A DNA stretch of 64,000 nt from Chrysophaeum taylorii (lineage: Eukaryota > Sar > Pelagophyceae > Pelagomonadales > Pelagomonadaceae). The position numbers and the translations under genes are program-made. The stretch lies in NCBI GenBank assembly GCA_029834535.1, contig JAQMWT010000358.1:83470-147469 (forward strand), written 5' to 3'. Within the stretch, counting starts at the first letter, position 1, and each line of letters starts with the position of its first letter. Of this stretch, positions 10,971 through 62,510 are shown in pieces. The notes under the pieces are model-generated. The model was not told the DNA's origin. It ran no database searches and worked only from the letters and a program-made list of their open reading frames with translations.

Positions 10971-13900
10971 TCACGTCGGGAAATGATCATGTGGGGTGCT
11001 TCGCGTAGAGCCGCAATAGAGCTTGGTGTAGTCTTGGGCTGGGCAGCCCTGGAGATATGTGCCTGGTGTCAGGAAGCTCGAGATTTTGCTGTCATCGTCG
11101 GCATCTACACTCGGCAGCTGGGCCATGGGTCCCAGAATGACGCCGTCAGGAACGACGTCGCCAGCCCAAGTGATAGAACCTGGGTGTAAAATTGCGGCGT
11201 TACCGATCTTTTTCTTGCGGAACACAAGATGCCCGTGAGCGAGCACGTGAGCAACGTTGTATGCGCCATCATCAATGACGGCGTCGCGACCAACTGTTAG
11301 CAGGGGCGGTTCGAAGATCTTCGTGTTGTTGACAAAGGCGTTCAGCGCAACGTGTGCCCCGAAGAAGCGCATATAGACCTACAATCGACGAGGTTTTCAA
11401 TATACGTGCATACGCGCCCGATCACCAAATGAGAAAGTCGGGACGCGGACAGTCACGTTGGCCAAGCGAGAGCCGCGAAGCAACGCCAGGATGTGTCTGT
11501 TGAGTGCTGTGCACGTGTGCTGATAGTTCATGTACACGATGCCAAAGCAAAGCGGCGTGTCAGTGCCGATCTTCCAGTCACGCAACACGATCCGCTGCCA
11601 GATGCGAAATGCAATTGCCAACGACGCATAGGCCACAAGCGCAATCGCACCTACAAGTAGAAGTGCGGATGTGCGCTCGACTGGTGGGCGCCAGACTTGG
11701 ATCTGGCCTCCGCGGATTCGAAAACCATCCTCGTAATAGTCCGATTTCAAGTAGTGGGTCGTGCCATAAAAGAGTAAAACGCCGAGCTCATAAGCTGGAA
11801 TAAGCGCGACAAAGCCAAGGAAGAACATGGCGGCTGCTCGTAAAACTGACTGACTGAAGTAAGCTACCCATGACGTGATCACCCTATGTGTCGTCTCTTT
11901 GTTCTCGAGCGACTTGATGGCCGACGAAAATAAATTCGATGCGAAGAAGGTCGAGCCCGTACGAACAATGTAGTCCGCGGGAACAATACTCTGGTGGCCT
12001 ACTACGGCGCCCTCTTGGACGATCACGCCGGCATTGAGTCGTGAGCGTAACCCGACTTGAGCGTACGCCCCAATCTTCACTGCCTTGAACGCGCCATTCG
12101 GTCCTTCGCAGGAGATCGTGCACGCAGAAAGCTGTGCGCCATCGCCAACCTCGATGAGATCAGCCTCTACTGGCGAGAAAAAGTACGAGGTTGCCATGCT
12201 CGCCGTTACCCTGCGTTCGCATGTCATCGCATTGTGCGCCACGATGTGTATCACAGATCACACCGAAGTTGTTTTATTTCGACACTGTAATATTAACCAG
12301 ACGCGCATTCCTAGTACTTTCATCAAGGCTGTGCTGACGAGACCATTCTCTTCCCAAAGCAGCGAACCAAATCCGAAGACGATACGGTACCAAATCCACT
12401 CCACGAACCACGTGCGTAGGCGCCACGTCCAGTCATCACGCACGCGCGATCCGGGGCGCAATCGTCCAATAAAGGCCCATTTGAGGAGAATTACGATAAC
12501 ACCAGCAACCTATGATGCATGGGCATTCATTCAAACACGAACATTCATGATGAAGACTCCGCTCGAGACAAACATCGCAGCATAGTAGGCCAAAACAAAG
12601 TAGGCGAGCTCGCGATACCGGAACTGCCAAGCATACCAGTCGACCTGCCTCACGTAAATTAAGTTGCGCAGGCCTCACACTTGGGTGAGAAAATCCTTAC
12701 CTGCCGGGATGTAAACTCAAGGAGGACGTTCGACGCGAAAAATGATCCGTAAAGGAAGCCAGGTAACGTCATGAGTTTTGCCAGCTCGAATACGAGCCAC
12801 GAAGCGGTGCTCGGAGACGACGTTCTCGCGTTTGCCACGCCCGCAAGCTGTGCCGGATTCGAATGATACACGCATGCTCTAGTCAATTGCATACCGGCCA
12901 TGGTGGCAGAGCCATGGTCAAGTACGGTGCCGTGATCGACAGTGCATTCCGGCATGACGACGGACAGCGATTTCGTTTCAGCGTGCGGCTTGACGACGAC
13001 GCACGCGAACCGCAGGCCGCTGTCCGGTTCGAACATGCGGCCGAAAATTGCACCGCTCACGGTTGCGTGTGCGCCGATGGAAAAAAGGTCAAATTCCCGC
13101 AAGAGAACTTTAATTCTTGCGCGAGGCGATACTTGCGCGCCCATCAACACATAAAAGCAGTTGATGAAGAGAGTGTCATGTATGAACAGCCCAACCCACA
13201 AGTCGAACTGGTCGATGAGCCGATCGATGAACCACCACCGCAGAAAGTACAGCGTTCCACGTCGCGTGGTCCCTACACGATAACGACCGATGACGACCCA
13301 TTTTGCAATGATGGCAATCGTGGTGAGCGAGACCATGAATAGCGGGATGATCAACGGTAGTAAAAGACCATATGTGTTTACGTTGCTGGTAACCTTGATG
13401 TGCGACCATGGCGAGTTCTCGCGCCGCACCTCGATGCGCTTCGAAGGAGCGATGGATTTTGTGCGCCACTGTACCCAGTACCCCCAAGTATACGACGGAA
13501 TAAGCGCGACAGAGACCAATGTGACAACGAGGACCAAAGACAACACTTGAACCACGTCGACGACCTCCTGTGGCAGCGTAGTATCGCCTAGATCAACACC
13601 GTCGAAGAGCGGCACCACCTTTGCGACCGGCGATGCGTCTTGCCCGTAAGCCGTCTTCAAAATCTCTTCAGACAAACCGACGATCGAGAGATCAGGGTCC
13701 ATAAGTACATTGAATCGCACATCCACGGCCAACGCCTGCCGCAGCTGCTGTTGCACGCTCAGCGCGTCCTGCGACGAAAGTCCAAGGTGTGCGACGGATG
13801 TTTCGTGCGGGTCGATGTCGAATTCAACCACTGATGCCAATGTCTTCAGGAGAGTGGATTGCACATACACGTGCTGCGCTTGACGCACGGCAGTCTCAAG

Positions 13901-16900
13901 TGCATCTGTCGGCCTTGACGCGGGTGCAACATGATGATAGGTTGACGATAGCGCTGCTGATGCCGCTGACAGGTCCTCGACGTTCACAACTTCCTCGAGC
14001 ACGCGGCTGATAACGGTGGAAATGTCACATCCAATGTTACCCTTGAGTTCCTCTTCTCTCTGTTTGACCGAGGTTGCGACTTCCATCACACGCGCGCGGA
14101 TTGTATCGAGCCATCCTTCGCCGAGTGCGCCAGTGCTCTCTCCTCTACGAAGATTCTGGTACATCTCGAGGACTCTGTCTCGCACGTTCGCAAAAATGGA
14201 CCCAAGCGAGTTCCTCTCGCTCCTGTCCTTTTCGGTCAGACAGGTCGTAATTTCTGTCGATAGCTGGTACGCAAGCTTCTCACTCAACTCGCCCAGTAAG
14301 TTGCTCATCTCTGTCGAGTACCAGTCGTAAGTGTCTGGACTTACTGTTTTGAGATCAGGGCGATGCTCGAGCATCTTCAAGTATACGTACAAGAGTACGG
14401 TTCGCATCCAAAGAAACGAAGCAGGGTTCTCGTTCGTTAACGCCAGCAGGCACGGCGCCAGCAGCGTCGCAGTGTGAGTTAGGAATGGGCGCGGTTGCCT
14501 TAAGCCGAACGAAACATTCCACACGATATAAACTTGAACCCACTCCGACATCATCACTGGGCACACATCATATTGTACGAACTCAGCCACTCGCGAAAAG
14601 ATTTCGCTTGAACCAATGTGCACACGCGCACTATTTTGCTGCAAATTGCAGCTCCAGTACGCGAGTTCGAAGCCAGCGCCTGGACAGGAAAGTGAGTTTC
14701 ATAGACACGAATGTTCACCGGTTGTGGACAACAAGAACATGAAAAAGAAAGTACTAACTACCCACAACGCTAACTCTGGTTCAATGCGTGCGTTACGGTC
14801 AAATTTGTTCGAAACGTCCTTGATTGCCGCCATGACGATGTTGTCAGTGAGCGTGGTGCTTTCCTCAAACGCATGTGCATGTTCGCTTCGGGTGTGTCTC
14901 ATGTTGGCTAAATGGTGCACAGCTGTAGAAATAGCGTCCTGTTTCATGATCTCAAAGGGTGATGTCTTGATGTTTTTCGCCGAGCGATGCACGGCAGCCT
15001 CTCGCGCTTTCAAGAACTCGAGCATAAAGTCCGAGTTGTCGCGCATCACAGGGAGCTGTATCATCGAGACACCAATTATGTGCAGAGCATAGCAGTAAAT
15101 CACGGCAATCCTTAGATCTGCGGCAGCATGCTTGTCAGAAAGAGGCAGGCCGCGACCAGGATGTCGGGTCTCCAGCTCCTGCGCAACCTGCAACAGCACG
15201 GGCATGTTGACGATATTCGACTTGACAGCCTCGACGAAAGATGCGACGTCAGCGACAGACTCGTCGTGCTCGAGACGTCGCTCCAGCTCGACAGGAATGT
15301 TGAGCTGCCGAAACATTGTGGGAATACTGGGGTGGTTTTTGAGCGAGGTTTCTGGTGGGAATAGGCTGGTGATTTGCTTCGCTGCACGCTCAACGAACGC
15401 CAAGCCACCTGCAAACGAATTTTTATCGTCCCCGAATGGCTTTGCAAGGAGGAAATCGACATTGGGTTTTGCGATTGCAGCTGTAGCCCGCGCAGCGATG
15501 GCTCGTTTACCGTCTCGATCGTCATCTTTGTCGTCAAGTGCGATGATCGTGTCGCGAAGCACACCTGGTGGAGTCGTCCCGTCGACGCCGGCGTGTGACG
15601 CGAGGCCGATTGCCAGCAACTCGCGTGGTTCGTCGAATCCGTTTGGAAAGTCACGCGTGACATTAACAGCTGACCAGAAATAGCGATTGTCTGTCGCCCA
15701 ACGATTAATGCGGACGAGTCTGCGGTCTTGGCCGTCGCCGACAATGATGCCGAAACGAAAGCAGCCGAATTTGTCTGCGTGTTTTAAGTTCATCTTTGAG
15801 TCAAGGCTGTCGTAGCTCTCGATCTCTGCGAGTGGGAGCCGTGAGCTCGCGGTGTGCGGGACAAATTTCACGACGCCGTTCGTGTGAATTACGAGGACGT
15901 AGAGCTCGTTGGGCAGTTGTGCCAGGATATCTTCTCGAACGCCGGTCCGCACGTCGACGTCATTTTTTGTTACGAGCACCTTGGCGATAACGCGTGCTTC
16001 ATGCGCAAAATGGCCGCAGCCTAGGTGATGCTGGCGGTACATGTTCCGGCGATCGTCGATCACGTTGTTGGTCTTGACGTGGAAGCGTCGAATTGCGTAA
16101 TGGTCATCGAGAACTTCCCAGACGCCAAAAAAATCTGAAGCTTCGTACCGATATCCCCGAGCCTGGGCTTCTGCGAGCAAGCATTCGGACCACTTCCACG
16201 TCGGATTGGCTACAGCTGCAGAGGTGCTCGGCCGACCTAGCGGCGCCCAACCCGCGACTTTCTCCTGGGTTTCGGTGTCGCCAAGAAAGGAGCTCATAGA
16301 CGAGATCATTCGCGAGAGCCACTTCGTAAAGCCCGCTTCATTCTTAGCATCGTCAGCTGCGGCGAATGACGACCTGCGTCGCTCCCTGAGTGATGGATTT
16401 GAGTCGAAGACGATGCGCAGCTTGCCAGTAAACAGCGCGTCTCGAATGGCTCGGCGCCGTAGCTTCCCACTACTTGTTTTCAATATAGTCCGCTGCTTGA
16501 TGAACACCACTCGTTGTGGTCTAAGGCCAACATCCTTGGCGACGCTAGTTGTGAGCGCTGCGACAAGAGTTGTGCATTCAGACGCATCTCCGCGTTCGTC
16601 TCGAATCTCGAGCACGATGCACAGGCACTCGTCTTCCTCTTCGCCATCGTCGGTAAAAGAGAAGGCGGCCACGCAGCCGGGCCTAATGGCGTCGCCAATG
16701 GCCTCGGTCGCGGCAAACTCAACATCGTCGCTGTAATAGTTTTTGCCCCCAATAATAATCAAATCTTTGATTCGACCGCAGATGAACAGATGTCCGTCCT
16801 CGATGAACGCCTCGTCACCGGTCCTCAGGTATGTCTGGCCATTGTCCGGATCGAGCTGTGCACGAAAGGTCTCGCGACTAAGCTCTGGCTTGCCCCAGTA

Positions 16901-18616
16901 GCCTTTGGCGATCGACGAGGAACTCAACCACAGCTCGCCTGGCATGCCGCTGGGCAAGATGCGTCTCGTCGCGGAATCGACGATGCAGAGGTTGATTATA
17001 AAGTCAGAACCGCATGAAGTGAGGTCGGGTCGTCGACGCGACGCAACAAGGCCGTCGTTCTCACCACAAGTTGCAACAACGTGTTCAGCCAGGCCATAAT
17101 TGGGCACAAAGATTCCGCGATCGCCGTCGTCAGGGAGACGTGCGTGGAAGGCCCAATAGGCGGCGAACTCCCGCAGTAACGAAGGCACGCACCTGATGGG
17201 CTCGCAAGCTTTCAGGCAATTTGCGAAGGAGGAATGGCACGCACCGCTGCCCAACACCGGCGACACAGTAGACCAGGCAGCTGAGGTCGATGTCGCTGAT
17301 GTCGGCGTTGGCGGCGCGCTTCGTGCACAGCCGGTAACCAAAGTCCGGGGAGGCCGTCCATATGGCGCGATATTTTGAGATGGCGCGCATCCACATCAGG
17401 GGATTGGCGAGAAATGAGAGCGGCGAAAAGTTGACCATGTGATAGCCTGCGCGTTAGTCATTCAGCCAATGCAATCTCGATTTCGATATCATCGGTAATG
17501 CACAGGTCGGCGCTGGTGATAGCCAGCAAGAAATGGCCCGAGCAGCATGAGAATCAGGCCACTATCATGGAACTGCGGCAACCACGACACCCCGACGACG
17601 CGCGTCGACGGCTCAGCAAGGTCGTGCAAGCGCACTATGGTGTCCTTGCCCATTCGGCATCCTAGAAAGTGGTGCTGGCCAGGCAAGTAGCACTCATTGA
17701 CATTGTGCCAGATGTTGTTGTGAGATACCATGACACCTTTGGGATCCCTGCGCATTGTGCAAAACGTGATGCCGGTTTTGATGATCAAGGCCGCTTACCC
17801 TGTCGATCCAGAAGTGAATTGAAGGAAGGCCACCGAGTCGTTCGGGGTTCGATCAAGACGACGACGACCGCTATGTTCTTTGCCGCCGAGCACGCGAGAT
17901 CGACGTTCGACGTTGCGCTTGTCGTCTAAGTCACGCTGACATTCCTGTTCATGAATGCTGGCGCGTAGCGATGCGCGAGCAAACGCTAATTCATCGTCGT
18001 CGTTGTCCTGCGAGTGCGGGTCTTCCTCAGCCAAAGCCGAGGAAAAGTCCGAGGTTCGAAGGTGTTTTATGATCTCATCGGCGAGGGTGTCCTCAGAAAG
18101 CGTGAATCGACTCTCTGTTGACAGGCGCTCGTCACCCTTGATGTCGTCGGTGTTGTACCATTCGATCCGTGGCCATGAGTGCCACATGCGCGTCGCCAGT
18201 TGCAGAGCGTACACGACGTTATCCGCAAGCCCGACCTTGGCGGTGCATGTGGTGCACACGAGGTCTAGCTTCTCGAGGTCGCGTGACAGCTTGGCCGGGT
18301 CTGGTGGGTAATTTGGCACTGCCAATATACCAGCGCGCAGGCAAGCGACGAAGGCAACGAAGAACTCGGGCCCCGGTGCGTAGACGAGCATTGCGCGTTC
18401 GCCCGTATTGAGGCCGACGTCGAAGAGCCAACTGGCCATGACCGCCGAGCGGTTCCAGACCTCGCCAAACGTGAGGTTGGCAGCTTCGGCGCCACCGCCA
18501 TCGAGCCAGGTTAGGAACGTCTCCTTATCGAGCGCGGATGCCGTTTTACGAGCCTGCGCCCTCCAACTCGCTTCGCCGCTCCAGGGTCGCCACCAGTGCG
18601 GCTTTCTAGACGTCAT
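10971..18616 (-). CDS. Fatty acyl-AMP ligase - acyl carrier - triple membrane/hexapeptide protein (Pls/PosA-type NRPS terminal region)
   Basis: Nine exons by my reading: 18616-17799, 17747-17524, 17446-17258, 17208-14719, 14679-12701, 12644-12543, 12509-12298, 12210-11457 and 11378-10971. They total 7176 bp, giving about 2391 aa in frame throughout. Order of parts: a fatty acyl-AMP ligase with TSGSTGDPKG, YGLAEH, YLRTGDEAF, RIKDLIIIGGKNYY and a C-terminal SSGKLRR lysine; a central region of about 700 aa that I do not recognise; a hydrophobic helix; a carrier domain with HLGLSSQDAL near residue 1540 (the Ser for phosphopantetheine is present, the usual preceding Asp is Ser); then membrane helices alternating with three left-handed beta-helix (hexapeptide) segments, as in the terminal region of Pls/PosA synthetases. 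It should activate a fatty acid as acyl-AMP, load it on the carrier and hand it to a membrane-bound domain. The exon 6 donor is uncertain (12542 or 12536). Confidence 0.8.
17447..17523 (-). other. Probable GC-AG intron flanked by a 9-bp direct repeat
   Basis: Homology requires joining LAG-YH to HMVNFSPLSF across 77 bases that contain stops. No GT donor gives the right phase; GC at the 5' end and AG at the 3' end do. The sequence GGCTATCAC occurs at both junctions. TGACTAAC, a good branch point, lies just before the acceptor. Confidence 0.6.
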
Positions 18617-19111: not shown

Positions 19112-20356
19112 TCACGACTGCGCCAACTTGGCGGTGGTAATATTAGCTTTCGTGGCTGCAGCAAGGACGGTCGCAGCGCGGGCGAAAAGTGTCGAAGCAC
19201 AGCGGAGCGGCCCGTCAAAATTAAGACCGAGGACCAGAGTAGCTTGGAGCGTCGCGCTTGTTGTGCACGGAGGCGAGATGATGAGGAGTAAAAGGGTGGT
19301 AGCGAGGAGAAATGGGCTCCTGGGCGTCGGGATGCGAATAGTGGTGGTAGTGAGGAGATTGATGCCGGCAGCGATGGCAAGACTGGCGACAAGGGCGTGG
19401 CTCCTTGTGAAAAAAAGCAGTGTAAGGACAACCTCGGGGAGGAACGGAAAATGCGGCGTCGACTTGAGGTCGAAGGTTAGCGGCACGTGTTCGAGCACGG
19501 CGAGTACAAACGCCGGAAGCGGAGCAAGGCCGAGCGCGAGCCAAATCATCGTCGCGTGTGGCGAGCACAACCCAACAAAGTAACGAGCGCCGCCGCTCTG
19601 TCGCGTCCCTTTGAGCGTCTCGCCGAAAGTAAATCGCGCGAGTCTCACGACGCCCGCGGTCGCAAAGGTCGCCGCTGCCAGGGGCATTCGTCTCCAGGCG
19701 AGCACAGCAGGCGCAATGGCCCAGGCTACGACGTCGGCGGCCGAGTCGTAGCGCGCGCCGAATTCGGTACACGCGTCCAGCGCTCGTGCCGTCGCCCCAT
19801 CCAAAGCATCGCACCAGAGGCCCACCACGAGCCAGTATTCGCTGGCACCCAGGACCACCGCAAGCCCACTCGCCAGGTTGCACGTCGTCAACGCAGTCGG
19901 CACCAACAGCTTAGACCAACAGCTGAGTGCGTCTTTGATGACGGCAAAACGGCGCTGCGTGGTCGAGATGTCCACCGTTCGCGGCAAGTACACCGTTTCG
20001 ATCCCACACCAATCGAACTCGCCAACGTGGTCGTCGCCCATCACCAAGATCTGAGCATCGTAGCGCTCGCAGTACTCTCTCTTCGCGTCGAGGCTGTGCT
20101 CGTCGAAGACTACATCGACACACCGCAGGGAGCGCACAATCTCTTTCCGCTCCGTTTCCGGCACCGTTGGTACGCGTTTTTTCTTCTTATAAGTCAACGC
20201 ATCCGTGCTCACGCCTACCACCAAGCGAACTCGAGGCCCAAGCTTGCTTCGCGCGACGTCGAGTGCGCGCTCCAACAGGCGGAGATGGCCCTTGTGGAAC
20301 AGATCGAACGTACCGAAGGTGATAACCGTCGCTCTCTCGAAGGAGTCTGATCGCAT
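19112..20356 (-). CDS. Cytidylyltransferase fused to CDP-alcohol phosphatidyltransferase (PS-synthase-like)
   Basis: 414 aa in one frame. Residues 10-145 are a nucleotidyltransferase of the CTP:phosphocholine/phosphoethanolamine/glycerol-3-phosphate class, with HKGH at 21-24 and a C-terminal RTVDISTTQ corresponding to RTxGISTT. Residues 150-395 are a polytopic CDP-alcohol phosphatidyltransferase. Its full signature D-x2-DG-x2-AR-x8-G-x3-D-x3-D is met at D183, D186, G187, A190, R191, G200, D204 and D208. The preceding TTCNLASGLAVV and the later YFVGLCSPHA resemble type II phosphatidylserine synthases. The fusion could make a CDP-activated headgroup or lipid precursor and use it in the next step within one membrane protein; the substrate is not determinable. 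About 6-7 hydrophobic helices follow to the C-terminus. Confidence 0.85.
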   Translation of the reverse strand: MRSDSFERATVITFGTFDLFHKGHLRLLERALDVARSKLGPRVRLVVGVSTDALTYKKKKRVPTVPETERKEIVRSLRCVDVVFDEHSLDAKREYCERYDAQILVMGDDHVGEFDWCGIETVYLPRTVDISTTQRRFAVIKDALSCWSKLLVPTALTTCNLASGLAVVLGASEYWLVVGLWCDALDGATARALDACTEFGARYDSAADVVAWAIAPAVLAWRRMPLAAATFATAGVVRLARFTFGETLKGTRQSGGARYFVGLCSPHATMIWLALGLAPLPAFVLAVLEHVPLTFDLKSTPHFPFLPEVVLTLLFFTRSHALVASLAIAAGINLLTTTTIRIPTPRSPFLLATTLLLLIISPPCTTSATLQATLVLGLNFDGPLRCASTLFARAATVLAAATKANITTAKLAQS

Positions 20357-20958
20357 CTTACAAGGTGCAAGCTGTCATGACCCGGGACACCTTCTCCTTG
20401 AACTCTAATGTTGAATTCAACACAACGCTCGTATTTCGCCGAATGTGCCAGCCGAAGCCTTGTTGCCCGGCGCTTTCGTGGAGAGCAGAACATTGGTGGT
20501 GTGTTGCGCTTTCTCGATGCGCTGGTGGTAGAAAAGAGGGCAGCCGTGCCGGTTGTGGTGGTGACGCGCCACTGTTTTTTCTACGGTGTCTTGCTAGCTG
20601 ACGAGTTCGACTACTATACGGCCTGGTCGTCGATAGGTAGGTAGGTAGTACGGTCGATTCGTCGTAGTCGTCGAGCGCAGGAACCTCCATTGATTGACGC
20701 GCGTTCCTCCCACTCGTGGATACCGCATGATACCTCGCGGTCATATGCCTCCACATCCATCTTCGCATTTTAGCTGTGTCGTTGCCGACGTCGACATCAG
20801 CAACCGCGGCGCCCGGCGGCCTTTCTCAACTACCTTATGTATCGCGATCGCCGTGCCCTGTCGCACCCTAAACTTTTCACACCACTTTTTTTTTGTCGCC
20901 TAGACTCCACCCCCCAGTTTATTAGAGGGTGGAAATCTAGAGGCCAAGGTGGATATGC
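20357..20958. other. Intergenic, divergent promoters
   Basis: 602 bases between divergent starts (20356 minus, 20959 plus). Short open frames occur, but none has features I can support. A T-run and an AT-rich patch precede the START gene. Confidence 0.45.
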
Positions 20959-45940: not shown

Positions 45941-48900
45941 TCAAACCGAAACCGATGTCTCGAGCACGCGGGGATTGAAATTGGTCACTCTTCTCTCGCC
46001 GCGAAAAGCGCGGTCCTCGTTCCGTTCGTCGATATTGTTGGCGAGATCGTCGAGGTCGACCTGAAATTGGCGGACGACGTCCAGGACGGCCTGAGATTTG
46101 TCAGCCGGCCAGCCTGTATCCTGGAAAAGGTGGGTCCAGTCGTTACAAAGACCGGGCTGTCGGGTGCCAGTGAGCGCGATGACGATGAGCGCTTGGGCCT
46201 GGGATTGGATGTCCGGCACGAGTCGGCCCTCGGCGAGCTTGCCGCAGAAGCCGTCGGGCGCGTTGATGTACTCGACGATGGCGCCGTGGAGCTCGTGGCC
46301 CGCAGTGACGTGCCAGATGAGGTCGGCGAGGAAGACGCGGAGGGTATTCAAAGACAAGGCGGGGAGATTCCACGGGGTGTCGAACTGAGTCTCGAAGTGG
46401 CTCCAAAAAGCACAGATCTCGGGATCGGCGTCGACGCGCTTTCCGTCGTCGTCGTCGTCGTCGTCGTAGAAGACGCTGAGGTATGCCCCCACGTACCGTT
46501 CGAACGTGTGCCAGAGGCGCAACCCATCCTGGGCAAGCGGCCACCGATCGAGAAGATCTTGGGGTAGACCGGCGCGTTGTATCTTTTCTGGGAGCGGGAT
46601 CCAGACCCAGGCCTCGAAGACGTCGGTGAAGTAAGAGACCCAGGCTGACCACGTGAGTCCGAAGGTTCGGTGTCCCAGGGAGCGTTCTGGAAGAAGCATA
46701 TCTTTGGCGGCGTCGTTGACGCTCGCCGTCAGGAACGTGAACTGCTTGAGGAGCCTGCGAAGCGGATGCGTCGCCGTGAAGGCGGCGCGCGTCGCGCGCG
46801 CGAGCCCGTTGGCGACGATCCAATGCGTGACTGCGAGGTGGTCCCGAAGCGTGAGCGAGGTCCCGAGGCTCATGCGGAAGTCGGCCTTGGCCTCATCCCA
46901 CGCGTCGTCTCTGGGCGCGGCGAGGTGCGATCTGTGACACGACCAGATCCCGACGGGCTGGAGGTCGCGATCGAGGTAGAGCGTGGCACCGTACGTCTTC
47001 CACGGCGGGCGCGTCTCGTACTTGCCAATGTATTCGACGTTCGCCTCAAAAAAAGCGCCGTCCGGGACCGCGTGGTCCGTCTCCTCCTCCTCCTCCTCCT
47101 TGCGAGCCCGCAGGTACCAGGCGCCCACGCCGGCGACAACGAGATCGACGAGGCCTCGGTCGGTCGCGAGGTGCGGCCACGAGACGTAGCCGTCGGGGAG
47201 GTAGGGGCCGAACGTTTCTTCGGCGCACGCGGCGGCCTCGGAATTCGAGGCAAAGTATGCCAGGTTGTTTTCGGAAAAGTCGAGGGCCATCGAAGAGGTG
47301 CGGAAGAAGGCGATCCTCGCTAGGCGCGCGAACGGTCCCGTCGGTCGGTCCTCGTCGACTTTCAGTAGCTTTAGCCCCGCGAACGGCGCGCGCCACGCGT
47401 CGTCTTCGACGCTATCGTCGAAGATTGCGGGGACGTCGAGGGACTTGGGCCTGTCGCTGGGGTCGACCGTCGATTGCACGACGCCAATGAAGAGCTTGGT
47501 GTGCGCGTCGACGTCGAGGTTGAACCGGTTCGCGCGGTGGCGGTGTCGGGGAATCATCGACGACGAAGGGTCGACGACGGGCTCGGCGAGCGGCGGGTCC
47601 ACGACATCCATGTCCTTGAGGAGAACCAAGGGCGGCGTGATTCCAAACGACGTCGGGACAATGTCCCGCGGCTCGAGGGGTTTGGATTCTCCACTTCTCG
47701 ACGATGACGCCGAAAACGGACGCCAGAGCCGCTCGTGGCCGACGTGCGCTGCCGAGGATGCGAACTCCTTGAGGAAGGCGGAAATCATGTGGAAAGTCAG
47801 CGCTTTGGCGGGGCAGGACCGGCTCTGGGGAGAAGCGAGACTTGGCGCGACGGCGAACTCGGCGAACCCGATCATGTGCTGGTCGTAGTCTTTTTCGGGG
47901 CGGAGGTAGAAGGTGACGTCGCCCCAAACGCGCGGGTCGCGTTGCGCCTGCCGCAAGTTGCAAAAGATCGGGCGGCGGCGGCTCTTCTCAAAGTAGCAAA
48001 AGCCCGCGACCGGCGGGAATCTCCGGATCGTTTCCCAGACGTACGAGCCGTGCAGGGTCATGTCGTCGAGCGAAAAACTTGGGGGAAGGTTGGCCTCTCC
48101 CCACGCCGAATACGGAACGCAGATCGCAAACCCGAGGACCGTTGGCACGCTCTGGCCGCCGGCGAACACGAGCGCATCAAGAACGCACGAGAGAAAGTAC
48201 TCGATTTCGTGCTCGTCGCGCGCCCGGAGTGCCGGAACGGTCATCAATACCGCCGCGCGGTGCCTGCCGAGCCACTGGCGCTTGAACGCGAGGATCTCGT
48301 CGAGGCCGATCGCAGCCTCGACCGCGCGCGAAACGAGTGCACCCTCGGGGACCATCGCCGCCGCCAGCGCCCTCTGCTGAAATTCGATAAACTCAAGAGC
48401 CTCCGCGTCCGTGAGGCGTACCCCGAGCGAAATCTCGTGGAGCACTTTGGTCGTCCACGCTCTGAGGTCGGCCGGGACGTCTACGCGGCCGCGGCCGCGG
48501 AAGAAGTCTCGGGCCCGTTCCGCGACGAGGCACGGTCGCCAGCGGCCCGACGGACCAAAGATCTCGCACAAGAGTGGGCGAATCCAGGCATGGATCTCGG
48601 GTGGCGCGCCGAGGCCCATGCAATGCCAGGGTACCTCGGGCCACAATCTCGAATTGAGCATCGCAAAACCCAAAAAATTTTGTCGCTCGACGTCGCCTTC
48701 GACGATTCGATTCCCGAGCTCCGCGAGCAAGCGCTTGCATTTGGCGTGCGCCGAGTACGAGACGCTATTTCGGAGATGTGGAAAGCTCGAGTCGCCGCCA
48801 GACGAGCTTTGCGCGTCGAAAAACGAAGACGACGGATCGGTCTCGTGACCGCACGGCAGCGCGAACGAGGCGCCGAGCGCAGCCATCGATGCGCGGTAGG

Positions 48901-49348
48901 AGAGCGACTCGTCGCCAAACAGCGAGGCGAGCCGACGCGCGCCTTCCCACCAGGACGTCGCAGTCTCGACCACGTGGCGCTCGACGCATTCACCGCCGAG
49001 CATCGTCACGCGACTGCCGTCCCGCGAGGAGAGCTCGTACTCGCGCTCCTCGCCGAGCTCCGACGTTCGCACGATCACCTCGCCGAGCACCTCGTCGGAC
49101 GTCGCATCGTAGACGCGCACCTGGATTTCGGCGTCTGCGGGTGCTTTGAACTCGAACTCCCACACCGGCACGCGAGATTCGACCACCTGCGCGCTCCTGT
49201 GCTCGAGTCGTTTCGTGTCCCACGTAGACCCGATACTGCCGACGCGGCACACGACGTACGTCCGATCGGTATCGCCGACGATGCGGCCCTCCCGCACCAT
49301 GACGGAGCGTCTCGCTTTATTTTTTGCGAAGGAGAATCCTCCACCCAT
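45941..49348 (-). CDS. C2 - P450 (CYP74-like) - lipoxygenase fusion
   Basis: 1135 aa in one uninterrupted frame. Residues 15-112 look like a C2/PLAT-type beta-sandwich (membrane or Ca2+ binding). Residues about 190-540 look like a P450 related to CYP74: the ExxR helix is ETIR at 439-442 (ETIRRFPPV), an I-helix-like FAGGQSVPT is upstream, and the heme Cys is C512 in SRSCPAKAL, comparable with NKQCxGK of allene oxide synthases. Residues about 600-1135 resemble a lipoxygenase: HLAVTH (H837, H842, HX4H iron ligands), then HPLRRLLKQFTF, then WHVTAGHELHG with H1018. It ends ...ETSVSV, placing a Val carboxylate where most LOX have Ile. The usual Asn ligand four residues after H1018 is Gly1022. Predicted role: make a fatty-acid hydroperoxide and convert it in the same polypeptide. 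Confidence 0.8.
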   Translation of the reverse strand: MGGGFSFAKNKARRSVMVREGRIVGDTDRTYVVCRVGSIGSTWDTKRLEHRSAQVVESRVPVWEFEFKAPADAEIQVRVYDATSDEVLGEVIVRTSELGEEREYELSSRDGSRVTMLGGECVERHVVETATSWWEGARRLASLFGDESLSYRASMAALGASFALPCGHETDPSSSFFDAQSSSGGDSSFPHLRNSVSYSAHAKCKRLLAELGNRIVEGDVERQNFLGFAMLNSRLWPEVPWHCMGLGAPPEIHAWIRPLLCEIFGPSGRWRPCLVAERARDFFRGRGRVDVPADLRAWTTKVLHEISLGVRLTDAEALEFIEFQQRALAAAMVPEGALVSRAVEAAIGLDEILAFKRQWLGRHRAAVLMTVPALRARDEHEIEYFLSCVLDALVFAGGQSVPTVLGFAICVPYSAWGEANLPPSFSLDDMTLHGSYVWETIRRFPPVAGFCYFEKSRRRPIFCNLRQAQRDPRVWGDVTFYLRPEKDYDQHMIGFAEFAVAPSLASPQSRSCPAKALTFHMISAFLKEFASSAAHVGHERLWRPFSASSSRSGESKPLEPRDIVPTSFGITPPLVLLKDMDVVDPPLAEPVVDPSSSMIPRHRHRANRFNLDVDAHTKLFIGVVQSTVDPSDRPKSLDVPAIFDDSVEDDAWRAPFAGLKLLKVDEDRPTGPFARLARIAFFRTSSMALDFSENNLAYFASNSEAAACAEETFGPYLPDGYVSWPHLATDRGLVDLVVAGVGAWYLRARKEEEEEETDHAVPDGAFFEANVEYIGKYETRPPWKTYGATLYLDRDLQPVGIWSCHRSHLAAPRDDAWDEAKADFRMSLGTSLTLRDHLAVTHWIVANGLARATRAAFTATHPLRRLLKQFTFLTASVNDAAKDMLLPERSLGHRTFGLTWSAWVSYFTDVFEAWVWIPLPEKIQRAGLPQDLLDRWPLAQDGLRLWHTFERYVGAYLSVFYDDDDDDDGKRVDADPEICAFWSHFETQFDTPWNLPALSLNTLRVFLADLIWHVTAGHELHGAIVEYINAPDGFCGKLAEGRLVPDIQSQAQALIVIALTGTRQPGLCNDWTHLFQDTGWPADKSQAVLDVVRQFQVDLDDLANNIDERNEDRAFRGERRVTNFNPRVLETSVSV

Positions 49349-49567
49349 AACTCACTCACTCACTCACTCGCGGCGTTAATGTTGATGATCCTAAAAAAAA
49401 CCCGTTCCAATCTGGAAGCGCTCTCAAAAGATCAGAAAGATCTGAAAGTTTCTTTCTTGCGACCTTTGGACCGCGCGTGACCTAGTGCGCTCGCGAGAAT
49501 ATAATGAATATTATTACACGTATCGCGACGTGCCAAGGCGCCGCCTTTGTTTGATGCTGCTGCCATT
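49349..49567. repeat. CACT microsatellite and spacer
   Basis: TCACTCACTCACTCACTCAC run at 49351-49371, then AT-rich spacer to the ACBP stop. No gene. Confidence 0.6.
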
Positions 49568-60999: not shown

Positions 61000-61165
61000 A
61001 CCTCCGGTGCTGGAAAAGAAGGAGAAGGAAAAAGGGGTAAGTGAGGTCCTCACACAGGTGTTGCAAAAGAAAGAAAAGGAAGAAGGGGTAAGTGAGGTCC
61101 TCGCACAGGTGCTGGAAAAGAAAGAAAGAAAAGGAGAAAGGGGTAAGTGAGACGCTCACAGAGGA
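61000..61165. repeat. ~57-bp minisatellite, three units
   Basis: Three imperfect units, each with a GGAAAAGAAAGAAAAGGA-type purine run, then GGGGTAAGTGAGGTCCTCAC and ACAGGTG. They lie between helicase copy H and the copia remnant. The minus frame over it encodes only a low-complexity Phe/Ser/Leu peptide. Confidence 0.8.
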
Positions 61166-61179
61166 GAAGCTTGAAGGAA

Positions 61180-61245
61180 GACGGCACATCCCTCATACCC
61201 CACAAACCCACCCACATCCTTCATGCTCCCCACACACCCCCTCTT
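61180..61245 (-). repeat. Dispersed repeat fragment
   Basis: CATCCCTCATACCCCACAAA and CCCACCCACATCCTTCATGC match the 36-kb dispersed repeat in reverse orientation. Confidence 0.85.
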
Positions 61246-61249
61246 AGTT

Positions 61250-62510
61250 AAAGACGTCAGGAAAGGCATTGTGGCAGAAAGAGACAGGAGATGTCGGGCG
61301 AAGTCACGAGGTGAGGTAACGAGCACGAAGCCGGAGGAAGGGAGGAGCTTCCGTACTACGGGTGAAGATATCGCTAAGGTTGTCAAGGCGGGGATTATGT
61401 TGGAGATCAATGATGTGGTTGCGATGATATTCGGCGGTGCTGTAAAAGCGAATATCAATATGGCGGGTGCGCCGCGTGAGACATTGGAAACGGACTTGGG
61501 TGACGGTGGTTCTGTTATCGACATACATTTGTACCGTGTGACGAGGAGATCAAAGTCATCAAAAAGTTTGAGAAGCCAAGAGAGCTTAGCAGTAGCGGCG
61601 TAAAGAGCGAGCAACTCAGCTTCAAAAGAGGAGCGGGCGAGGAGGTACTGCGAGCGTGAGCTGTAGGAGATCATAGAGCCACCAAGCTGAAAACAATAGC
61701 CAGTTGTAGAGTGACAGTCATCAGGGTCGTCGGCCCAGCTGGAGTCGGAATAACCAGAGAGACGAAGGGTAGAATCGCGACCAAGAACAAGGGCAAGATC
61801 TTGAGTACCATTGAGATAACGGAGGGTATGAGATAGAGCTTGCCAGTGGGGTTTACATTTCACGGATAGCATGGGATTGGTCGATAGCGAGCGTGCGACG
61901 TGCGCGATCACGCGTAATGCGGAGACCAACGTAAGTGTGAAGATCGAGCTCGTTGACATCAGTGAAGGCTTTGAAACGGAGGAAGAAGGCTTGGTAATGG
62001 CCAAGGCAATGACGAGGGTGCGCCACAAGAAGATCATCAACGACAAGAACAAGATTAGAACGACAGTATAATTAAGCAAGAGCTTGTAACTGCAAGTGTC
62101 ACCAGATCCGCGGACGAAGCCACAATCATTGACAAGGAAGCGTTCTAAGTAAAGCCACCAGTAGGGACATGCTTGCGGGTAACCGTACCAAGAGCGACAG
62201 AGTTTGGAAATGAGTGTGGAGGTATCTTTGGGTTGGCTGCGAGCATAGCCTTCGGGTGGCCAGACATAGATGTCGTCGTCAATGGGAGCTTGGATAAAAG
62301 CGGAGCTGACATCCAACGTATGCAAATCCCAGTCGTGAACAGCAACGCCAGACAGGGGCTTGTATGAAAGCGGAGATGACATCTACAGGACGGTACGTGT
62401 CGTGGTAAGCAATGCCGTGAACCTGGGTGTAACCGCGGACAACGAGATGAGCATTGTGCGATTTGAAGCGGCCAGATTCATACTTCGTACGGTGGACCCT
62501 CTTCAAAGGG
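61250..62510 (-). mobile_element. Degenerate Ty1/copia retrotransposon (RT and RNase H region)
   Basis: Minus-strand pieces in several frames: the RT start (YESGRFKSHNAHLVVRGYTQ, then HDTYRPV), LDVSSAFIQAPIDDDIYVW with PPEGYA, and ISKLCRSWYGYPQACPYWW. Then comes the RNase H region (LRYLNGTQDLALVLGRD, GYSDSSWADDPDDCHSTTGY, SSFEAELLALYAATAKLSWL), and a third frame with RRTRHIDIRFYS and NLSDIFTRST. This order is that of Ty1/copia pol. The YVDD box is not in frame, and there are several shifts plus a local duplication of SAFIQAP. No LTRs are visible. It is a dead copy. Confidence 0.85.

Follow-up and report, generated by a model that had tools for sequence, protein, structure and literature searches.

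Introduction

What would a protein do that opens with a fatty acyl-AMP ligase (FAAL) and closes with the kind of membrane domain that ends the epsilon-poly-L-lysine synthetase Pls? This question is raised by a gene on the minus strand of a 64,000-nucleotide stretch of the pelagophyte alga Chrysophaeum taylorii (contig JAQMWT010000358.1, positions 83,470 to 147,469; the whole stretch is called the window and the gene the window gene). A sequence-only reading had seen in it a FAAL replacing the amino-acid adenylation (A) domain, one carrier and a Pls-type triple terminal domain in a eukaryote, an arrangement which is upheld by profile models and by matches in the Protein Data Bank (PDB). As far as sequence and predicted structure allow, the gene is interpreted here as encoding a membrane-bound one-module synthase that would load and transfer acyl groups, a reading to which a probability of about 0.55 is assigned. 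According to the accessible text of PMC10522769, the Pls terminal domain is known to act on amino-acid homopolymers alone and its structure is known as a prediction only, with three beta-helices on six transmembrane (TM) helices being predicted for the delta-poly-L-ornithine synthetase PosA.

Gene structure and domain order

The window gene is read in nine exons (Table 1), the reading frame staying open through all of them without an internal stop; the nine-exon reading proposed earlier is thereby retained, its length of 2391 codons being replaced by 2399 residues and a stop under our own splice choices. The introns measure 27-77 nt, introns 6 and 8 having just 33 and 27 nt, and intron 2 requires a GC-AG splice. 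Profile searches place a FAAL, a carrier and three predicted modules of TM helices plus left-handed beta-helix one after the other in this frame, as the sequence-only reading had it, save that a stretch of about 750 residues between FAAL and carrier had been omitted and that the third module was assigned to exon 9 as a whole, whereas exon 8 holds its TM helices and exon 9 its beta-helix.

Table 1. Positions of the window gene and its parts in the window
Feature	Position	Strand	Content	Basis
Whole gene	10971..18616	-	nine exons, 2399 aa and stop	in-frame splice model, colinear paralogues, dN/dS
Exons 1-5	18616-17799, 17747-17524, 17446-17245, 17192-14755, 14679-12701	-		splice model
Exons 6-9	12644-12543, 12509-12286, 12210-11406, 11378-10971	-		splice model
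FAAL domain	16367..18535	-	about aa 28-690, exons 1-4	PRK05850, PDB FAALs, motifs in paralogues
Middle region	13922..16234	-	about aa 735-1480	no Pfam match; aligned in 15 of 17 paralogues
Carrier (PP-binding) domain	13652..13864	-	about aa 1500-1570	PF00550 below cut-off; AlphaFold2 model helical
Codon of carrier Ser1530 (GLSSQ)	13772..13774	-	predicted phosphopantetheine site	conservation in paralogues
Terminal module C1	12782..13564	-	aa 1600-1860, two TM helices and left-handed beta-helix	TIGR02353, AlphaFold2, Foldseek
Terminal module C2	11913..12781	-	aa 1861-2095, exons 5-8	TIGR02353 model 49-452; Hexapep below cut-off
Terminal module C3	11037..11912	-	aa 2096-2378, exons 8-9	TIGR02353 model 592-675
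Codon of His2308	11247..11249	-	aligned with the QTH histidine of bacterial Pls/PosA C3	alignments

That the gene is maintained as a unit is indicated by its paralogues, 17 of which were analysed out of the 37 places of the genome where a FAAL is paired with a terminal domain. Twelve of them, distributed over seven other contigs, show the same colinear arrangement along at least 90% of the protein. The ratio of non-synonymous to synonymous substitution rates (dN/dS) was computed for 11 pairs, and in three of these, the comparisons with paralogues L037, L038 and L044, it is 0.13-0.29 in all six segments (FAAL, middle region, carrier, C1-C3), hence each segment is under purifying selection; the terminal modules (0.16-0.27) are as constrained as the FAAL (0.19-0.22). 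Against paralogue C45a, one of two genes on contig C45, the values are 0.10-0.37. Twelve of the 17 paralogues align without a stop and five with stops, nine in L041, one each in L025 and L026 and two each in C45a and C45b; such stops can also come from reading across introns.

The adenylating domain, the middle region and the carrier

The N-terminal domain is FAAL-like, as its nearest relatives by sequence are FAALs, though every curated score stays below its cut-off. The NCBIfam model PRK05850 (fatty-acid--AMP ligase) gives 265 bits (cut-off 775) and PRK09192 gives 221 bits (cut-off 600); one NRPS model, presumably built on non-ribosomal peptide synthetases (NRPS) with an N-terminal FAAL, scores 266 bits, under its cut-off, and PRK07768, a model named CoA ligase, ranks third with 237 bits. 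The best PDB sequence matches are 7r7g (276 bits, 4.6e-81) and 3kxw (224 bits, 3.3e-65), both of which we take to be FAALs, their PDB names not saying so; full-length entries named FAAL reach 138-167 bits (FadD23 167, FadD32 at most 146, 3pbk 145), and the NRPS and A-domain entries among the matches listed at most 106 bits. Five motifs, which we take to be A3, A5, A7, A8 and A10, were found in the domain, among them A3 as FTSGSTGDPKGV and A10 as KTSSGKLRR. Across the 17 aligned paralogues A7, A8 and A10 are almost unchanged; the A3 residues that fall on the first splice junction are either changed or not aligned in L035, L036, L041, C45a, C45b and the C529 gene, which may be an effect of the splice junction. 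Membership of the DIP2 family was considered and rejected, the window gene having one FAAL instead of two and a PF23024 match under the cut-off; this match is stronger in the gene on contig C488 described below.

The middle region of about 750 residues sits between FAAL and carrier and is missing from both C45 paralogues. For the two long pieces of it that were scanned, one from the window and one from a relative, no Pfam match was obtained up to E 1, and a single-sequence AlphaFold2 prediction was unusable (pLDDT 35). In the genome the region occurs on 21 contigs, a FAAL match adjoining it on all except C415 and C524. The carrier that follows is matched by PF00550 with E 0.002 and 18.8 bits, the cut-off of 20.8 bits not being reached; an AlphaFold2 model shows it as helical at low to middling confidence for this part, and the equivalent of Ser1530 is kept in all 14 paralogues that align at the position. 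As in Pls/PosA, it is a single carrier adjoining the terminal domain. Four matches to PF01648 (phosphopantetheinyl transferase) exceed the cut-off in the same genome.

The terminal domain

TIGR02353, the model of the Pls/PosA terminal region, matches residues 1600-2378 with E 2.8e-30 and 105.3 bits, covering model positions 49-452 and one further stretch; taken by itself, exon 9 matches positions 592-675 (E 6.9e-07). A lack of any similarity of exons 5-9 to the Pls/PosA ending, which had been named as what would overturn the proposed architecture, was thus not found. Hexapep matches C2 with E 0.025, below the cut-off, and a PDB sequence search with the terminal region returned GlmU as its best match at E 0.92. 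A fold was modelled for C1; C2 and C3 are recognised by profile. The AlphaFold2 model of the exon-5 piece (carrier and C1), computed from an alignment with 33 bacterial sequences, consists, beside the carrier, of a TM pair and a beta-helix at a mean pLDDT of 76, and within the beta-helix stretch (positions 261-360 of the model) eight of ten blocks have mean values of 93-96, the others 78 and 86. Foldseek returned for this model mostly beta-helix (hexapeptide) acetyltransferases and gamma-carbonic-anhydrase-like chains, at TM-scores to the whole query of 0.14-0.29, which are low. In a hydropathy scan five terminal TM peaks exceeded the threshold and a sixth was discerned by eye only, as compared to six in Pls.

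The three tandem domains of Pls were reportedly the subject of a mutational study by Kito (2013). Among 115 full-length bacterial terminal domains the C3 motif QTHxxEDR is invariant or nearly so, and its histidine is present in all 115 as well as in the five algal sequences aligned with them (the window gene and those on C488, C529, C24 and C10); among paralogues it is kept in 15 of the 16 aligned there. Of 114 columns conserved in at least 93% of the bacterial copies, seven are shared by every one of the five algal sequences, namely six glycines or alanines and this histidine. The rest of the motif has changed: Gln and Arg are lost in all five, Glu is kept in the C488 sequence only, and the window gene retains the histidine and has lost Gln, Glu, Asp and Arg. 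The charged residues that are invariant or almost so near the bacterial histidine (Glu, Asp/Glu, Arg and Lys) are absent from the window gene.

The family in the C. taylorii genome

In the assembly (70.8 Mb, 697 contigs) the pairing recurs, which the sequence-only reading had not noticed. When the stronger matches are clustered, 47 FAAL places and 44 terminal-domain places result, and 37 of the 47 FAAL places are followed, on the same strand and no more than 12 kb downstream, by a terminal match, about 0.2 being expected by our own arithmetic; ten FAAL places have no terminal domain, and seven terminal places have no FAAL upstream. This count took 62 of 73 TIGR02353 rows (E <= 2.6e-6) and 59 of 85 FAAL rows (E <= 8.6e-25), the weaker rows being dropped. 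Weak TIGR02353 matches are unspecific, since 13 of 14 control genomes match at E <= 0.001 and one of 14 at 1e-20; of the 73 rows of the alga, 10 reach 1e-20. The places on C10/C297 and on C488/C451 may be haplotype duplicates.

The members differ in what precedes the common ending. The window gene has the form FAAL, middle region, carrier, terminal domain, and the two C45 genes the form without the middle region. On C52 (L029, L030) and C315 (L031, L032) one condensation-adenylation-carrier (C-A-PP) module is placed between the FAAL-middle-carrier part and the same terminal domain, a further exon on C315, read by eye, supplying the last part of the A domain together with its carrier. On C529 (L033, L034) two C-A-PP modules follow, whose A domains score 512 bits in two stretches and so exceed the cut-off of 317 for amino-acid adenylation. 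The genes on C529, C315 and C52 are likely lipopeptide synthetases of the alga. A single open frame of 4042 residues at C488:13555-25680 (L045, L046) joins four FAAL-type AMP-binding domains with two acyl-CoA-dehydrogenase domains, a weakly matched carrier (E 0.047) and the terminal domain; just downstream of it another FAAL-terminal place holds two FAALs, and a similar place was found on C451. On C24 (70739-72688, L001) and C10 (L007) the ketoreductase (KR) end of a polyketide synthase (PKS) is followed by three and at least one carriers, respectively, and then by the Pls-type ending; for the pair C10/C297 (L007, L008) the domain reading rests on L007. Taken together, the recurrent FAAL-terminal pairing points to an unexplored family of machines that make or attach lipids.

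Comparison with known systems

The nearest counterpart in layout is formed by the Pls/PosA NRPS, i.e., epsilon-poly-L-lysine synthetase, PosA and fungal Epls, with which the window gene shares an activating domain, a carrier, the C3 histidine and, by prediction, TM helices with three left-handed beta-helices, and from which it differs by a FAAL for the A domain, the large middle region and the loss of the charged residues next to the histidine. Since its adenylating domain is FAAL-type by models and PDB matches instead of amino-acid-specific, its TIGR02353 score falls short of the curated cut-off and the C3 motif is reduced to the histidine, it is not a member of Pls/PosA, and yet it would work like one. 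Of 138 bacterial TIGR02353 loci, 134 carry an amino-acid A domain upstream and none carries a FAAL, the upstream part of the other four being unreadable. These loci were collected from samples of four phyla and from one pattern scan in which Sphingomonas predominated, and 41 of the 138 bear the title Sphingomonas; L136, a partial match at E 9e-22, was excluded before counting, L163 was classed on 15 bits, and five pairs from the same genomes (L129/L091, L130/L109, L131/L115, L132/L123, L133/L126) are probably the same genes. In the phylum samples, each including its centre genome that was already known to match, TIGR02353 was met at E <= 1e-30 in 27 of 398, 12 of 297, 5 of 296 and 5 of 288 genomes. 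A bacterial source of the FAAL-Pls combination is thus ruled out among the sampled genomes; as cyanobacteria, actinobacteria and others were not chosen as sample centres, an unsampled source may exist. Copies in viruses are likewise rejected, the viral_contigs scans having given no relatives, and a plasmid search gave just two distant Pls/PosA records.

With the bacterial FAAL loading modules of PKS and NRPS (7r7g, 3kxw, FadD32, FadD23), which provide the best sequence matches, the window gene has in common an N-terminal FAAL that would load a carrier, and it departs from them by a short insertion region, the absence of the HDMG methionine and the Pls-type membrane ending. Hexapeptide acyltransferases such as maltose and galactoside O-acetyltransferase and serine acetyltransferase resemble it in the beta-helix fold of the modelled C1; these enzymes are soluble and CoA-dependent, whereas the window protein is predicted to be membrane-bound and carrier-fed.

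FAALs have already been reported from stramenopiles and algae (PMC11837247, accessible text), and the Pls-type membrane ending is not named in the accessible parts of that paper or of PMC8460268. For C. taylorii itself, the available part of PMC10366177 counts 13 PKS and nine NRPS genes and reports the left-handed beta-helix (LbH) as an atypical PKS domain together with an N-terminal adenylation-like domain, two features which these PKS genes have in common with the window gene; neither 'fatty acyl' nor 'lysine' occurs in its main text, figures and supplements lying outside this search. Single genes of the FAAL-terminal family may be among those counted there. The fusion, its spread and its modular series were not found in the text of the open-licence literature (figures and supplements outside), nor is 'TIGR02353' named in any paper searched there, which is weak evidence because only open-licence papers were covered.

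Proposed reaction and alternative explanations

The suggested reaction would begin with the FAAL adenylating a carboxylic acid, probably a fatty acid, at the expense of ATP. The acyl group would next be loaded onto the phosphopantetheine at Ser1530 of the carrier of the same protein, which would then deliver it to the terminal domain at the membrane. There, the three beta-helix modules may form one acyltransferase site in which His2308 would serve as general base, so that the acyl group would pass to a hydroxyl or amino acceptor and the carrier would be freed. Acyl transfer at the membrane is proposed because the histidine is conserved, the fold is that of beta-helix acyltransferases and the domain stands behind FAAL, NRPS and PKS parts; a one-time transfer suits the family, as the same ending after C-A-PP modules, four FAALs and PKS parts occupies the place of an off-loading domain. 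The first part of the scheme is drawn from the families to which the domains belong. Further arguments in favour of the scheme are the FAAL matches with A7, A8 and A10 preserved among paralogues, the conserved carrier serine, the phosphopantetheinyl transferase matches in the genome, the TIGR02353 similarity and the low dN/dS against three paralogues.

Several observations weigh against this interpretation. The TIGR02353 score of 105 bits is far under the curated cut-off of 423 bits and the identity of carrier and C1 to their bacterial counterparts is 20-25%, which renders residue alignments in the terminal region uncertain; paralogue L040 carries Gln at the position of the C3 histidine. Recent duplicates with few changes show high dN/dS (L035/L036 middle region 0.95; C45a/C45b C2 1.16 and carrier 0.83), and the scheme leaves the middle region without a role. 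Within the FAAL, the FAAL-specific insertion is mostly absent, the YGxxE-GE spacing being 58 as compared to 80 in 7r7g, the sole solved FAAL measured; it is 57 in each of the four C488 FAALs and, among 130 bacterial Pls frames, 52 in every one of the 74 that show the pattern. Likewise the HDMG methionine seen in C488 and 7r7g, which is probably the one discussed in PMC8460268, is replaced by S, T, L or A in the window gene and in 17 of 17 paralogues. With the insertion mostly missing and this methionine replaced, a preference for the carrier over CoA is not assured.

Polymerisation and transfer of acyl groups had both been proposed by the sequence-only reading. An iterative polymeriser, whose one carrier would be charged again and again while the terminal domain builds a polyester or polyamide from hydroxy- or amino-acyl units, in the manner of epsilon-polylysine synthetase, would account for a layout identical to that of Pls/PosA with one activating domain, one carrier and a triple terminal module (PMC10522769, accessible text), for the TIGR02353 similarity and for the retained histidine; it would also call for a hydroxyl or amino group on the activated acid. 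Given the loss of the charged residues next to the histidine and the presence of the ending behind multi-module NRPS and PKS parts, a setting in which iteration would not be expected, transfer or release is the likelier function and polymerisation is regarded as improbable. Slightly less probable still is a membrane-anchored loading station whose terminal domain is a mere scaffold, the carrier giving its acyl group in trans to PKS or NRPS proteins: FAALs commonly supply such lines, stand-alone or fused (PMC11837247, PMC8460268, accessible parts), NRPS and PKS genes exist in this genome and the terminal domain has diverged from the bacterial enzyme, yet an inert anchor need be neither as constrained as the FAAL nor endowed with a histidine kept in nearly all paralogues. 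The idea that the gene model wrongly joins at least two neighbouring genes, or the remains of a decaying copy, draws on the GC-AG intron, the two shortest introns and the five paralogues with stops; it is considered very improbable in view of the open frame of the window gene, the order kept among its paralogues, purifying selection on all segments and the single frame on C488 that holds FAALs and terminal domain together. Acyl loading followed by one transfer at the membrane is accordingly the reading we favour among these.

Other observations in the window

Direct repeats were found across the boundaries of intron 2 (17447-17523, 9 nt), intron 3 (17193-17244, 10 nt) and intron 5 (12645-12700, 7 nt) of the window gene; as a control for introns 2 and 3, boundary repeats of at least 8 nt arose in 19 of 20,000 random boundary pairs. 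Introns made by introners carry direct repeats across their boundaries, and the repeats at these three introns resemble the target-site duplications of such elements. Among the paralogues, L037 and L038 on C351 are near identical in middle region and carrier (synonymous divergence dS at most 0.017) and strongly diverged in C2-C3 (dS 0.39-0.65), a pattern suggestive of gene conversion between the copies.

Upstream of the window gene, the nearest long open frame of the same strand (19112-20374, -) joins a cytidylyltransferase to a CDP-alcohol phosphatidyltransferase and is thus a phospholipid-synthesis neighbour. Farther off, a lipoxygenase domain lies in a 1136-residue open frame at 45941-49351 (-), and a reverse transcriptase fragment (PF07727), presumably copia-type, at 61156-62382 (-).

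Implications

Beyond the single gene, it is tentatively suggested, at odds somewhat short of even, that the triple beta-helix membrane domain of Pls type serves assembly lines in general as a histidine-based off-loading domain; standing at the end of FAAL, NRPS and PKS proteins alike in this alga, it would hand their products on to a membrane acceptor. The series present in one genome, from FAAL-carrier-terminal proteins over those with one or two additional peptide modules to the four-FAAL and PKS forms, allows the role of the domain with monomers other than diamino acids to be asked. If the suggestion holds true, the window gene would be the shortest useful form, combining loading and off-loading without a C-A module and with the middle module in addition, and the bacterial polylysine makers would represent the special case of the next monomer serving as acceptor. 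Such a domain would extend the known repertoire by which NRPS and PKS lines are ended, and it would hint at lipid or lipopeptide products in a group of algae that form mucilage and blooms and whose chemistry, as far as the accessible text of PMC10366177 goes, is little studied.

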